Shown here piece after piece: positions 21,804 through 26,402 of a stretch of 39,080 bases of DNA. Position 1 is the stretch's first letter, and the number at the start of each line of letters is the position of its first letter. The notes beneath the pieces are model-generated. The model ran no database searches. It was not told the DNA's origin and saw only the letters and a program-made list of their open reading frames with translations. This stretch comes from Halorubrum sp. (GTDB lineage Archaea > Halobacteriota > Halobacteria > Halobacteriales > Haloferacaceae), in the NCBI GenBank assembly GCA_028275105.1, contig JAQCNI010000090.1:1-39080 (forward strand), in the 5' to 3' direction. A program made the position numbers and the translations under genes.

Positions 21804-21837
21804 TCACGGCGTCGGCGCGATTCACGGCGTCGGCGCG
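21804..21837. repeat. Tandem duplication of the last codons of the PhoU-domain gene
   Basis: TCACGGCGTCGGCGCG occurs at 21804-21819 and 21822-21837. The second copy is the 3' end of the PhoU-domain gene including its TGA stop, and the first is a copy just beyond the stop. The period is 18 bp, the same as the adjoining five-copy repeat. Confidence 0.85.
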
Positions 21838-22820
21838 GCCTCCTGAAGCGCGGTCTCGGCGACGTTCCCGCCGTAGTCGGCCGACCGGAGGACCGAGTCG
21901 ACGACGAGCCCAAGGAGTTGTGCGCGTGTCGGGTCGAGGTCCCGGAGCAGCTCGTCGATGGCCCGCACGCGTTCGTCGATATCCCGCACGCCGGTCCGTG
22001 CCTCGTTCGCCATCCGGCTGGCCTCGTCGTTGTCCTCCTCGAACAACGCGTCGATGGCCGTGTCGATCACGTCGACGGCATCGTCGTGGAGGCCGTCGAT
22101 GGCATCGGTGACGTCGTCGGGAAGGGGATCCTCGATGTTGAGCGTCAGGTGGGCGATCTTCGTGGCGTGGTCGCCGATCCGTTCCAGCTGACGGGCGCTG
22201 GAGTGATAGTCGAAACACGCCTCTCGGGGGAGTCCAAGCTCCTCGGCCGCCCGCGGCGTCCGGAGCGTCGCCCGGAAGATCCGCGAGACGACGAGCCACA
22301 GTCGGTCGAGGTCGTCGTCCCGGCCGATGATGTCGTGCGCGAGGTCATGGTCGAGCCCGGAGAGCGCCGTGATCGCGTCCTCGAGCATCGACAACGAGAT
22401 CAGCCGCATCCGGGTGACGGCGTTGTGGATGGACAGCTCGGAGGAGTCGAGAAGGTCCCGGACGACGACGCGGTCATGCGCCTCCTCGAGCACTTCGAGA
22501 CCGACGAGGCTCTGGACCGCATCGCGGACGGTCGAGTGCTGCTCGGTGGTGATCTTTGCCCCCTCAAGTTCGATGACGTCGAACCCGCTAACGTACATCG
22601 TGGTGACCGCACGGGTGAGCTTCTGGCCGGTCAGCCCGGTGATGTTCAACGAACCGCGCGTCCGTTCGACCTCGGTCCGCGGCGTGAGAAACAGCGAATC
22701 GCCGTCGGGATAGAACTCGACCTCGCTGCCGGCGTCCACGTCGTTCGCGGTCGCCCACGACTTCGGCAGCGAGACCGTGTACGTCGAGCCGCCGGTGACC
22801 TGCACCTTCCGAGTTTCCAT
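21822..22820 (-). CDS. AbrB/SpoVT-type DNA-binding plus PhoU-domain protein (phosphate-uptake regulator type)
   Basis: This 332-aa protein has an N-terminal swapped-hairpin AbrB-like domain (residues 1-45: METRKVQVTGGSTYTVSLPK, then SWA). Two PhoU-like helical bundles follow (about 110-215 and 225-325), with HDLAHDIIGRDDDLDRLWLVVSR and YHSSARQLERIGDHATKIA, the acidic metal-binding E/D-xxxD motifs of PhoU. Haloarchaeal proteins of this layout are usually annotated as phosphate-uptake regulators. There are no pst genes next to it, so its target is open. The ATG at 22820 is supported by CTTTAAGA about 27 nt upstream. The end of the gene is duplicated in tandem. Confidence 0.92.
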   Translation of the reverse strand: METRKVQVTGGSTYTVSLPKSWATANDVDAGSEVEFYPDGDSLFLTPRTEVERTRGSLNITGLTGQKLTRAVTTMYVSGFDVIELEGAKITTEQHSTVRDAVQSLVGLEVLEEAHDRVVVRDLLDSSELSIHNAVTRMRLISLSMLEDAITALSGLDHDLAHDIIGRDDDLDRLWLVVSRIFRATLRTPRAAEELGLPREACFDYHSSARQLERIGDHATKIAHLTLNIEDPLPDDVTDAIDGLHDDAVDVIDTAIDALFEEDNDEASRMANEARTGVRDIDERVRAIDELLRDLDPTRAQLLGLVVDSVLRSADYGGNVAETALQEAAPTP

Positions 22821-23186
22821 GGGAACGGTAGGTTGCCCGCACTTCTTAAAGATGTGTGTTCTATATACCTCGAACGTTGTTCGGGTTCCCGTCAAGCGGT
22901 ATTTTACCGGCGTTACTGGCACTACGCTCAACTTGGTCGGACTACCCCGTCAAATGAATAATATCTATATAGCAGTATATATACATATCTTCACCGCGAG
23001 GTTGGATACGGCGGATGCCGCGGGGTCGGTGGCATGACCATCGAAGTGACCGATCGATCGCGGGCCGCGATCCACCGGACCGGCCCCCGGCGTTTCCCGG
23101 TCACCGGTCCGGGTTTCGTATGGAGCCGTCGCGGTGTCGGGGGAGTTGAGAAGAGTTAAACCCGATGCGTCGTTACGCCCAATCGC
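22821..23186. other. 366-bp intergenic region with promoters and an AT-rich patch
   Basis: No gene is supported. The left end holds the PhoU-gene TATA box (TCTTAAAG, 22844-22851 on the + strand). The stretch 22953-22990 is strikingly AT-rich for this genome, with TCTATATAGCAGTATATATA and two further TATA-like words, but no coding sequence starts after it. The right end holds the tRNA promoter AGAGTTAAAC at 23152-23161, about 30 nt before the tRNA. Short open frames across it (to 23037 on +, from 23210 on -) look accidental. Confidence 0.6.
23152..23161 (+). promoter_or_regulatory. TATA box of tRNA-Glu
   Basis: AGAGTTAAAC is centred about 30 nt before the first base of the tRNA, where an archaeal tRNA promoter is expected. 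Confidence 0.6.
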
Positions 23187-23297
23187 GCTCGGTTGGTGTA
23201 GTCCGGCCAATCATGTTGGCCTTTCGACGAACGCGGCGCGTCGACGTGCCGGTTCGGAAGACAGCCGACGACCAGGGTTCAAATCCCTGACCGAGCA
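23187..23297 (+). tRNA. tRNA-Glu (anticodon TTC) with a 36-nt intron
   Basis: The acceptor stem GCTCGGT (23187-23193) pairs perfectly with ACCGAGC (23290-23296), and the discriminator is A. The T arm is CAGGG-TTCAAAT-CCCTG. The anticodon stem TTGGC (23216-23220) pairs with GCCGA (23264-23268), the anticodon TTC is at 23223-23225, and position 37 is G23226. An intron at 23227-23262 lies between positions 37 and 38. The splice region is an exact bulge-helix-bulge: CTTT pairs with GAAG (4 bp, one G-U), 3-nt bulges CGA and ACA, and an outer helix CGAAC/GTTCG. The mature length is 75 nt, with CCA not encoded. A T5 run at 23303-23307 is the likely terminator. The gene is convergent with thiM, 21 bp away. 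Confidence 0.95.
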
Positions 23298-23318: not shown

Positions 23319-24167
23319 TCACATCCGCGTCAGCCGGGAGGCGACGTCCAGTTCGGGCCGTTCGGTCGCCAGCGACGCCACCGCGTCCATGAACGCGGTC
23401 CGGTAGCTCGCCGGTCCGGCGGGGTCGCGGTCGGCGGCGGACTCCCCGGCGAACCCGTACGCCGCGACGCCGGCGAGTGCCGCCTCCAGCGTCGACGACG
23501 GCGGCGAGGCCGACGCATCGGTCACCGCGGTCAGCGTCGCGAGCGTGCTCCCGAGCATACAGCCGGAGCCGACGAACGAACCCATCCGTTCGTGGCCGAC
23601 CGCGAGTTCGAACGCGGCCCCGTCGCCGGCGACGACGTCGGTCGTCCCGGAGGCGACGACGACCGCGCCGGTCTCGTCCGCGAGCGCCCGTGCCCCCCCG
23701 GCGACACCCGACCCGTCTCCGACGGACTCAACGCCCTTGACCGCCGCCGTCTCGCCCGCGAGCCCGCGTATCTCGCCTGCGTTCCCCTTGATGACGTCGA
23801 ACGCGACCGCGTCGAGGAGCCGACCGACCGACTCGACGCGGTGTGGCGTCGCCCCGTACCCGACCGGATCGAGCACGACCGGCACCCCGGCCTCGTTGGC
23901 TTGGCGCCCCGCGTCGATCATCGCGTCCACGTCACCGACCGTCGCCGTCCCGGTGTTGATGCTCACGGCGTCCGCCCCGGCGGCCATGTCGCCGGCTTCG
24001 GCCGGCGCGTCCGCCATCACCGGGAGCCCGCCCCAGTGGAGCGTGACGTCCGCCGTCTCGCTCGTCGTCACCGCGTTGGTGAGGTGGTGAACCAGCGGCG
24101 ACGCCGCCTCGACCGCCGCCAACGTCTCCCGGACGACCGCCCCGTCGACCGGCGGTTCATCGGGCAT
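23319..24167 (-). CDS. thiM: Hydroxyethylthiazole kinase
   Basis: ThiM (282 aa) phosphorylates 4-methyl-5-(2-hydroxyethyl)thiazole for thiamine salvage. Characteristic segments are VHHLTNAVTTSETAD near the N-terminus, AVSINTGTA, VVLDPVGYGATPHR, VIKGNAGEI and the anion-hole/catalytic loop SFVGSGCMLGSTLATLTAV with the conserved Cys of the family. The start overlaps the 3' end of thiE by 11 nt, so the pair is an operon. No TPP-riboswitch-like structure could be recognised before thiE. Length and motifs are normal. Confidence 0.95.
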   Translation of the reverse strand: MPDEPPVDGAVVRETLAAVEAASPLVHHLTNAVTTSETADVTLHWGGLPVMADAPAEAGDMAAGADAVSINTGTATVGDVDAMIDAGRQANEAGVPVVLDPVGYGATPHRVESVGRLLDAVAFDVIKGNAGEIRGLAGETAAVKGVESVGDGSGVAGGARALADETGAVVVASGTTDVVAGDGAAFELAVGHERMGSFVGSGCMLGSTLATLTAVTDASASPPSSTLEAALAGVAAYGFAGESAADRDPAGPASYRTAFMDAVASLATERPELDVASRLTRM

Positions 24168-24795
24168 CGGCGACCACCTCCCCGATCGTTCCCGCGGCCG
24201 CTTGCGGGTCGTCCGCGGCCGTGATCGCCGAGATCACCGCCACGCCGGCCGCGCCCGCGTCCACCACCGAGGTCGCGTTCTCCGCATCGACCCCGCCGAT
24301 CCCGATGACGGGGATATCGACGGCGTTCGCGACCGTCCCGACGCGTTCGGGACCGATCCCGTCCTTCGCGTCGGCGACGTCCTTCGATTCGGTTCCGTAC
24401 ACCGCTCCGACGCCGAGGTAGTCCGCGCCGGCGACTTCCGCGGCCTCCGCCTCCTCGACCGTCGACGCCGAACGGCCGATCACCGCGTCCGGGCCGAGTC
24501 GGTCGCGGGCGACCTCGATCGGCAGGTCGGACTGGCCGAGATGAACGCCGTCGGCGTCGACCGCCGCCGCAAGGTCGATCCGGTCGTTCACGACGAGCGG
24601 GACGCCGGCGGACTCGGTTAGTTCCCGGAGTCGACCGCCGAGTCGATACCGTCGTCGTGCGTCGGTTCCCTTCTCGCGAAGCTGGACGACGTCGACGCCG
24701 CCCGCGAGCGCGGCGGAGACGACGGTTGGCGTGTCCCGGCCCGCGGAGTGGCTCGACTGTGTCACGAGGTACGTTCGCCACGTCGCTGGATCCAT
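24157..24795 (-). CDS. thiE: Thiamine-phosphate synthase
   Basis: ThiE (212 aa) joins HMP-pyrophosphate and thiazole phosphate to thiamine phosphate, directly after the ThiM step. The TIM-barrel motifs are all present: VDVVQLREKG (Q and R bind the pyrophosphate, with K nearby), PLVVNDRIDLA, GVHLGQSDLP, VIGRSAST, GVGAVYGTESK and IPVIGIGGV. The ATG at 24795 follows a CATTATG box by about 28 nt. The upstream open frame to 24951 has no family similarity. The products of the two genes supply thiamine diphosphate for enzymes such as the one at 14940. Confidence 0.95.
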   Translation of the reverse strand: MDPATWRTYLVTQSSHSAGRDTPTVVSAALAGGVDVVQLREKGTDARRRYRLGGRLRELTESAGVPLVVNDRIDLAAAVDADGVHLGQSDLPIEVARDRLGPDAVIGRSASTVEEAEAAEVAGADYLGVGAVYGTESKDVADAKDGIGPERVGTVANAVDIPVIGIGGVDAENATSVVDAGAAGVAVISAITAADDPQAAAGTIGEVVADAR

Positions 24796-24819
24796 TGGTG
24801 GTATTACCGGGTGGTCCCG

Positions 24820-24829
24820 GCATAATGGT
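24820..24829 (-). promoter_or_regulatory. TATA box of the thiE-thiM operon
   Basis: On the minus strand ACCATTATGC lies about 29 nt before the thiE ATG at 24795. This fits a leaderless transcript, which leaves no room for a 5' riboswitch. Confidence 0.5.
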
Positions 24830-24950
24830 TGTGCTCCGGGTCGAGGCTGCCGGAGATTCCGGTTCGGAACGTTGATACTCCGCGTCAGCGAGGGAGGATC
24901 CACGTCAGGAACGGACAGACACAAACCCCCCACTGCCGTACCACGCTTCA

Positions 24951-26402
24951 ATGCGCTCCCGCCTCCGGGAAGCGGCCGGCCGAACCGGCGAGGCCGTCGC
25001 CGGCGCGCTCGACCGGGCCGGCGTCATCGACCGCGGGCGGCTCCGTGAGACGCTCGACCTCGCGTGGCCCCGGATCGTCACCGGGTTCGCGATCATGTCG
25101 AAGAATACGGTCGACCTCGCGGTCATCGGCGCGGTGCTCGGCGCGCCCGCGGTCGCCGGGGTCGCCTTCGCGTTCGCGTACTGGCAGCTGGCGAAGTTCA
25201 TCTCCATCGGACTGGCGGGCGGCACCGTCTCGCTCGTCTCGCAGAACTACGGGGGCGGCGAAACCGACCGGGCCGCACTCGTGGTCAAACAGTCGCTCGT
25301 CGTTGCGCTCGCGCTCGTCGTCCCGATCGTCGTCGTCCTCGTCGGCCTCGCCGAACCGCTGATCGCGCTCGTGGGCGGCGAGGGCGACGCGCTCGGGTAC
25401 GGGGTCACGTACCTCGTCGTCACCGCGCCGGCGCTGCTGTTCGAGTTCTTCAACATGATCGCGAGCCGGACGTACGCCGGCGTCGGGGACACGTTCACGC
25501 CGATGACGTTCCGCGCCGGCGGCGCGCTCCTCAACACCGTCCTGACCGCAGGATTCGTTTTCGGCGCGGGGCTCGGCGTCCTGGGCGCGGGACTCGGGAC
25601 GGCCATCTCGATCATCGCCGTCGCCGCCGGGCTCTCGTGGGGGATGACCGGCCGGTCGTACTTCGGACGCGGGGCATCCCCGGTGCCGGTGACCCCGACC
25701 GGCCCGTGGGTCGACACCGAGCTCACCAGACAGCTCCTCCGCGTCTCCGCGCCCCTGATAGCCCGGCGCGTCGCCCAGGGCGTCGTCGTCTTCCCGCTGT
25801 TGTGGGTGGCCGCCTCGTTCGGCTCCGCGACGGTCGCGGCCCTCGAGGTCGGGCGACGCGTCCGTGGCCTCCTCGGGAGTTTCACGTGGGGGTTCTCCAT
25901 CGCCGCGAGCACGCTCGTCGGCCAGCGGCTCGGCGCGGCCGAGGAGGCGCTCGCGACGGAGTACGGGTGGGACGTGATCCGGCTGTCGACGCTGGTCTAT
26001 CTCGTCGCGTCCGCCGCAGTCCTCCTCGCTGCGGATCCCATCGCGGCGGTGTTCGTCGACGACCCGGAGGCCGTGGCCGCGACCGCGACCTTCGTCATGG
26101 TCGCCGCCATGTCCGCCGTCCCGCTGGGGATCAACGGCTCCGTGACCGGGTCGCTCCGGGGGGCCGGCGACACCCGGTGGCCGTTCCTCGCGTCGATGGT
26201 GGGGCTGTACGTCTTCGCGCTGCCGGCGGCGCTCCTCGGCCTGGTGACGCCGCTTGGCGTCGCCGGGCTGTACGCGGCGGTGATACTGGAGAAACTCGTT
26301 CCGGCCGTGCTCAACGGGATCCGGTTTCGGTCGAACCGCTGGCAGGCGGTCAGCCGACAGTACCGCCCCGCCGCGGCCGACGGCGAGGGAACCTCGAAGT
26401 AG
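24951..26402 (+). CDS. MATE-family efflux transporter
   Basis: This 483-aa protein has twelve predicted membrane helices in two six-helix lobes, the normal MATE size. Recognisable segments include LAWPRIVTGFAIMSKNTVDLAVIG (first helix), QNYGGGETDRAA after helix 2, and the second-lobe equivalents STLVGQRLGAAEEALATE and GINGSVTGSLRGAGDTRWPF. MATE proteins export cationic or aromatic compounds by Na+ or H+ antiport across the cytoplasmic membrane, and the substrate here is unknown. It shares a 155-bp intergenic region with divergent thiE. Its stop is only 2 bp from that of the convergent mscS gene. Confidence 0.94.
   Translation: MRSRLREAAGRTGEAVAGALDRAGVIDRGRLRETLDLAWPRIVTGFAIMSKNTVDLAVIGAVLGAPAVAGVAFAFAYWQLAKFISIGLAGGTVSLVSQNYGGGETDRAALVVKQSLVVALALVVPIVVVLVGLAEPLIALVGGEGDALGYGVTYLVVTAPALLFEFFNMIASRTYAGVGDTFTPMTFRAGGALLNTVLTAGFVFGAGLGVLGAGLGTAISIIAVAAGLSWGMTGRSYFGRGASPVPVTPTGPWVDTELTRQLLRVSAPLIARRVAQGVVVFPLLWVAASFGSATVAALEVGRRVRGLLGSFTWGFSIAASTLVGQRLGAAEEALATEYGWDVIRLSTLVYLVASAAVLLAADPIAAVFVDDPEAVAATATFVMVAAMSAVPLGINGSVTGSLRGAGDTRWPFLASMVGLYVFALPAALLGLVTPLGVAGLYAAVILEKLVPAVLNGIRFRSNRWQAVSRQYRPAAADGEGTSK

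Follow-up and report, generated by a model that had tools for sequence, protein, structure and literature searches.

The Halorubrum sp. genome considered here contains a gene for tRNA-Glu(TTC) that is interrupted by 36 nt in its anticodon loop. The locus raises the question of what this insert is, how a functional tRNA is obtained from the gene, and how the insert came to reside in a glutamate tRNA. Introns with a bulge-helix-bulge (BHB) motif at position 37/38 are a textbook feature of archaeal tRNA genes. In the haloarchaea, tRNA introns are described for tRNA-Trp, tRNA-Met and tRNA-Gln of Haloferax (PMC7714728) and for tRNA-Trp and tRNA-Met of Halobacterium (PMC12558985), while across the Archaea as a whole introns are found in every isodecoder (PMC4090602). 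A search of the open-access literature for papers on Glu or Asn introns of haloarchaea or Halorubrum yielded none; tRNAscan-based databases probably list the Halorubrum Glu intron.

Here, we describe the structure of the interrupted gene, outline its likely maturation and discuss the origin of the insert. With high confidence, we regard it as an archaeal tRNA intron of the ordinary kind, which interrupts the only tRNA-Glu(UUC) gene, would be spliced by EndA and RtcB, was apparently inserted a single time on the Halorubrum stem and has been passed on vertically ever since.

Structure of the tRNA-Glu(TTC) gene and its intron

The window, i.e., the whole stretch of DNA analyzed (39,080 nucleotides), harbours the tRNA gene together with the neighbouring genes listed in Table 1. 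The Rfam model RF00005 matches the gene from end to end (44.3 bits, E 3e-8) and places the insert in the anticodon loop, and ARAGORN run with the intron option (-i) reports a tRNA-Glu(ttc) whose 36-nt intron follows gene position 40. The gene escaped the default gathering-threshold Rfam scan of the window and was recovered in E-value mode; likewise, it escaped ARAGORN when the intron option was not set. The tRNA identity, the 36-nt intron, the splice sites and the BHB geometry given in an earlier note on this DNA prove right to the base, as judged by Rfam, ARAGORN -i and a reading of the sequence. A block upstream of the tRNA, GGGAGTTGAGAAGAGTTAAA, is retained in the loci L115, L144, L156 and L167 at about the same distance from the gene.

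Table 1. The interrupted tRNA-Glu(TTC) gene, its predicted splice elements and its neighbours. Positions are those of the window, unless genome and contig are given.
Feature	Position	Strand	Basis and remarks
Intron-containing tRNA-Glu(TTC) gene	23187..23297	+	111 nt, 75 nt spliced; RF00005, ARAGORN -i
5' exon, tRNA positions 1-37, ends ...GGC-CTTTCG	23187..23226	+	Sequence reading, ARAGORN -i
Anticodon TTC (34-36)	23223..23225	+	Sequence reading, ARAGORN -i
36-nt intron at 37/38	23227..23262	+	ARAGORN -i; genus-wide family
3' exon, tRNA positions 38-73, starts A-GCC	23263..23297	+	Sequence reading, ARAGORN -i
BHB central helix, 5' strand CTTT (exon)	23221..23224	+	Pairs with GAAG 23257-23260, one G-U
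BHB central helix, 3' strand GAAG (intron)	23257..23260	+	All 4 pairs form in each Glu intron tested, 22 unrelated ones among them
5' bulge CGA, predicted cut between CG and A (after G23226)	23225..23227	+	Geometry from sequence; cut inferred from BHB rules
3' bulge ACA, predicted cut between AC and A (before A23263)	23261..23263	+	Geometry from sequence; cut inferred
Outer helix, 5' strand CGAAC	23228..23232	+	Covaries: second pair G-C to A-U in 11/22 variants
Outer helix, 3' strand GTTCG	23252..23256	+	Pairing kept among Halorubrum variants
Intron-internal hairpin CGGCGCG-TCGA-CGTGCCG above bulged G23233	23234..23251	+	Compensatory changes in 4/7 pairs, one of them the poorly kept closing pair
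Retained upstream block GGGAGTTGAGAAGAGTTAAA, putative tRNA promoter (BRE/TATA)	23141..23160	+	Promoter role inferred
PhoU/AbrB-like regulator gene, tRNA neighbour (context)	21822..22841	-	PF01895, PF04014
thiM (hydroxyethylthiazole kinase), tRNA neighbour (context)	23319..24167	-	PF02110
tRNA-Gln(TTG) introns in Halorubrum	G015:C1:608875-608938, G006:C123:3748-3811, G232:C1:2363894-2363957, G020:C59:18687-18750		

The insertion lies at 37/38 of an intact tRNA and is framed by two 3-nt bulges, which flank a 4-bp helix and are themselves bordered by further helices, as is characteristic of the canonical hBHBh' form. On this sequence evidence, the feature is an archaeal tRNA intron with a canonical BHB in tRNA-Glu(TTC). 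The pre-tRNA fold scores z = -4.1 relative to shuffled sequences, and a 4-bp central helix combined with a 5-bp outer helix arises in 0.04% of shuffled introns. The BHB fold itself (-52.7) is not the minimum-energy fold (-54.1), the gap between the two being 1.4 kcal/mol.

The comparison of 22 distinct 36-nt Halorubrum introns provides a separate view of the structure. In these variants 97.8% of the pair cells are standard, and five pairs have changed on both sides, which amounts to 23 cells compared to 6.0 in shuffles. In slid controls, pairing drops to 29-50%. Covariation is confined to the outer and the inner helix of the intron. The central helix and the anticodon helix are invariant among the Halorubrum variants, and therefore, neither contributes covariation evidence of its own. 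The Halorubrum Glu introns range from 30 to 36 nt in length, and this drift is located in the hairpin.

Proposed maturation of the sole GAA-decoding tRNA

The decoding of GAA codons requires a tRNA with the anticodon UUC. The host genome is a metagenome-assembled genome (MAG) of 2.5 Mb in 155 contigs (94.6% complete), and its tRNA genes were compiled from matches to RF00005. The assembly contains one Glu(TTC) gene, and the only other tRNA-Glu gene has the anticodon CTC. Therefore, the interrupted gene must be spliced to decode GAA, unless the assembly lost a second gene. A missed second copy is unlikely, given that none of 46 Halorubrum genomes has an intronless Glu(TTC) gene.

The splicing endonuclease EndA is encoded in the host genome (PF01974 and PF02778; 505.7 bits with the NCBIfam model for tRNA splicing endonuclease), and the protein shows two matches to the N-terminal domain and a single catalytic domain. 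A search of the 94.6% complete MAG for the ligase RtcB gave no match. Since RtcB is found in 51 of 52 Halorubrum genomes, the gene is probably missing from the assembly. Several Halorubrum genomes harbour an intein in RtcB (L234:16-2955), which is inserted between GYDIN and CGVR beside the active-site cysteine, and an NCBIfam model for intein-containing RtcB exists.

According to the proposed pathway, a precursor of 111 nt would be transcribed from its own promoter, and the two-domain (alpha-2 type) EndA would cut both 3-nt bulges, i.e., after G23226 and before A23263. RtcB would then ligate the exons to yield a 75-nt tRNA reading GAA, and the 36-nt intron would be set free, possibly in circular form. 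Upon depletion of EndA in Haloferax, intron-containing tRNA stays unspliced, and the level of intron-containing tRNAs is lowered, such that they rank among the ten most down-regulated genes (PMC7714728).

Distribution in Halorubrum and other haloarchaea

A class-wide sample of 391 haloarchaeal genomes was scanned with strict patterns, and therefore the counts of intron-containing and of intronless genes are both lower bounds. Glu introns are present in at least 55 of the 391 genomes, 46 of which are Halorubrum. At least 242 genomes from 64 genera possess an intronless Glu(TTC) gene, and in the remaining genomes the exons fit neither the intron nor the intronless pattern. Within Halorubrum, the intron occurs in every genome of the sample (46/46), and an intronless Glu(TTC) gene in none (0/46). 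Outside of this genus, the strict pattern recovers Glu introns in nine genomes of four genera, to which a search among close relatives adds one genome (G041). These numbers agree with the opinion voiced in the earlier note that an intron in a glutamate tRNA is less usual among haloarchaea. The comparison of tRNA-Glu(TTC) genes across relatives, which that note had put forward as a check, cuts both ways: most Halobacteria do not share the intron, yet in Halorubrum it is universal and hence ordinary.

A collection of named contigs was scanned in addition, without requiring the BHB motif. About 40 of the 66 matches to the intron in this collection stem from Halorubrum species, a count that takes in one record labelled Halobellus captivus and a few MAGs, and these matches place the host genome in Halorubrum. 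In the same scan, Glu introns were also found in Halorientalis, Haloglomus, Halolamina, Natronocalculus, Halalkalirubrum, Salinibaculum, Halorarius, Halospeciosus and Salinirussus, as well as in several MAGs and in three MAGs of the Methanocellales. The Methanocellales MAGs (L117, L131 and L160) carry introns of 38-41 nt at the identical Glu(TTC) site, and their exon halves closely resemble the haloarchaeal ones.

Other tRNAs are interrupted as well. The host genome harbours a BHB intron in tRNA-Asn(GTT) (L024:1501-1608, minus strand; G000:C116:7646-7753), where 35 nt separate an exon ending in CTGTTA from an exon starting with ACGAGG, and the central helix is CUGU/ACGG. Asn introns lie outside the Trp/Met/Gln set and are widespread, occurring in 68 of the 391 haloarchaeal genomes and in 23 of 86 genera by the strict pattern. 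Moreover, four of the 46 Halorubrum genomes contain a 40-nt intron in tRNA-Gln(TTG), which is unrelated to their Glu intron (Table 1). This Gln intron is perhaps a younger gain and is useful for studying intron insertion.

Probable origin of the intron on the Halorubrum stem

In the RpoB' tree, Halorubrum is monophyletic (100/98), and among the sampled genera g25 branches as its sister (99/97). The Glu(TTC) gene of this sister genus is intronless, and the spliced Halorubrum tRNA agrees in 75 of 75 positions with the intronless tRNA-Glu genes found in g25, g31, g35, g27 and g37. The gene dsbB is located directly 3' of tRNA-Glu in the early-branching Halorubrum L144 (H. vacuolatum), L156 (a MAG) and L167 (JWXQ-INN 858), and the same arrangement is found in g25. 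Because g25 has the identical intronless tRNA and the common dsbB neighbour, we favour a single in-situ insertion on the Halorubrum stem. Following the split from g25, the intron would have inserted a single time into the orthologous tRNA-Glu gene already in place, and since then it would have been vertically inherited, changing mainly in the hairpin.

The surroundings of the gene are less stable. In the host genome and in many other Halorubrum genomes tRNA-Glu adjoins a phoU-like gene. The genes thiM and thiE (23319-24951) adjoin the tRNA in the host and do not do so in the other Halorubrum loci examined. Near tRNA-Glu in the other Halorubrum loci compared, thiM, thiE and the MATE gene have no matches and are of no synteny value. 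Within Halorubrum, the gene order around tRNA-Glu has changed at least twice.

Alternatively, the Glu intron might be ancestral in the haloarchaea and might have been precisely lost in most lineages, e.g., through recombination with cDNA of the spliced tRNA. The scattering of Glu introns across many genera would fit this scenario, as would the identity of spliced and intronless tRNAs, and short introns diverge so fast that homologues could look unrelated. The tree by itself cannot separate gain from loss, and gain is favoured because the intronless state is that of the majority (at least 242/391). At least four changes of the intron trait are needed on the RpoB' tree, and losses would have to outnumber gains. 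Furthermore, the Natronocalculus/Halalkalirubrum clade carries a Glu intron different from that of Halorubrum, and these two intron-bearing clades of the family do not form a sister pair: a grouping of both is disfavoured with an AU p of 0.033, a value that is indicative, as the group was picked after viewing the tree. Taken against these points, an ancestral intron appears improbable. Insertion on the Halorubrum stem is the preferred reading, and the apparently separate Glu introns of other haloarchaea and of some Methanocellales at the same site probably mean that gains recur.

A possible function of the intron

A second alternative holds that the intron has been retained because it serves as a guide RNA, as a modification determinant or as protection from elements that insert themselves into tRNA genes. 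None of the 46 sampled Halorubrum genomes has lost the intron, its hairpin is maintained by compensatory change, and the tRNA-Trp intron of Haloferax is indeed a box C/D guide (PMC7714728). However, a reading of the 36-nt Glu intron for box C/D motifs revealed neither a C box (RUGAUGA) nor a D box (CUGA). The hairpin drifts in sequence and length (30-36 nt), as expected if folding alone matters, and the exact Halorubrum 3' exon, a potential attachment site, occurs in no viral contig. In Haloferax the Trp intron can be deleted and viability is kept, according to the studies as cited in PMC7714728 and PMC4090602. Nothing seen in the intron points to a separate role, and we consider this alternative even less probable than an ancestral origin. 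Rather, the intron is probably a passive passenger, which is kept because the BHB is kept. One viral contig bears an intronless Glu(TTC)-like sequence.

Relation to introns of other tRNAs

The earlier note had further suggested that another tRNA may have been the recent source of the intron. Within the same genome, such a transfer could have started from tRNA-Gln, -Asn, -Met or -Trp. The Gln and Glu genes of haloarchaea have common exon flanks (CCAATCATNNNGGCCTTTSG before the site and AGCC behind it), so that a working BHB would result, and many haloarchaea carry Gln introns at the identical site. Using a null model that preserves the hairpin and the BHB, the best Gln match of the host intron is slightly above chance and not significant (37 Gln introns, p 0.07). 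The likeness to 22 other Glu introns (p 0.18) and to five Asn introns (p 0.21) is not significant either, and three further Halorubrum variants show no significant likeness to Gln introns (p 0.33-0.64). In contrast, Halorubrum Glu introns detect each other easily, with 0 of 150 in this positive control.

A scan of the host genome for a second copy of the intron with up to three mismatches, which is the sole coverage of the genome's own Trp and elongator Met introns, found none. The host Gln(TTG) gene is intronless, and the 40-nt Gln intron of four Halorubrum genomes is unrelated. All 46 Halorubrum genomes of the sample contain the intron, whose age is therefore no less than that of the genus. 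With no donor detected among the Gln, other Glu and Asn introns and no second copy at up to three mismatches, the suggested recent move is not borne out, and we regard it as very unlikely. On a longer time scale, the intron may descend from a very old Gln intron, because the flanking exon sequence is common to both tRNAs and short introns lose similarity fast.

Finally, the notion that the insert is no intron at all, but reflects a decayed tRNA gene carrying an insertion, or else chance pairing, draws on the gene having been missed by the default Rfam scan and can practically be dismissed in view of exons identical to intact genes, the status as sole Glu(TTC) gene, the conservation throughout the genus and the covariation.

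Comparison with known archaeal tRNA introns

The nearest analogue of the Halorubrum Glu intron is the tRNA-Gln(TTG) intron of Haloferax volcanii (31 nt, PMC7714728) and its haloarchaeal relatives. Both introns share the 37/38 site, the exon flanks, the GAAG/CTTT central helix, the size class and the hBHBh' form, and the Haloferax Gln(TTG) intron is an EndA substrate in vivo. Yet, they reside in different tRNAs, and the intron cores have no detectable sequence relationship. The haloarchaeal tRNA-Trp and elongator tRNA-Met introns also contain a BHB, belong to the EndA-spliced class and are located in the anticodon loop. However, these introns are longer in Haloferax (103 and 75 nt, respectively), and the Trp intron includes a box C/D guide, which the Halorubrum Glu intron lacks.

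The Glu introns of other haloarchaea and of Methanocellales occupy the same tRNA and the same site. In 22 of 22 non-Halorubrum Glu introns tested, the four bases preceding the 3' bulge pair with CTTT to form a perfect 4-bp central helix. Their hairpins, in contrast, are not detectably related to the Halorubrum family, and they apparently represent separate insertions. The tRNA introns of Thermoproteales and other Crenarchaeota likewise contain BHB motifs, but they are numerous and non-canonical and are associated with alpha2-beta2 endonucleases, compared to the one canonical intron described here. For these organisms a large-scale transposition of introns has been proposed (Fujishima 2010, as cited in PMC4090602).

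Implications for intron gain

The Halorubrum Glu intron extends the picture of three introns (Trp, Met and Gln) derived from Haloferax, and this extension is a modest one. Beyond that, it is possible, if doubtful, that position 37/38 of a few haloarchaeal tRNAs (Glu, Gln and Asn) is a recurrent landing site, where unrelated short BHB introns arrived by many independent insertions into resident genes, the central helix being fitted to the exon each time. If true, recurrent landing would imply a site-specific process of intron gain, for which reverse splicing by EndA/RtcB with subsequent re-entry into DNA, or recombination between paralogous tRNA genes, would be candidates. The pair of Halorubrum and g25 would then provide a clean before-and-after of one such event. 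An in-place gain is datable here to one branch, as the sister genus has an identical intronless ortholog next to the same neighbour gene, and therefore, the gain of archaeal tRNA introns becomes testable by means of closely related genomes.
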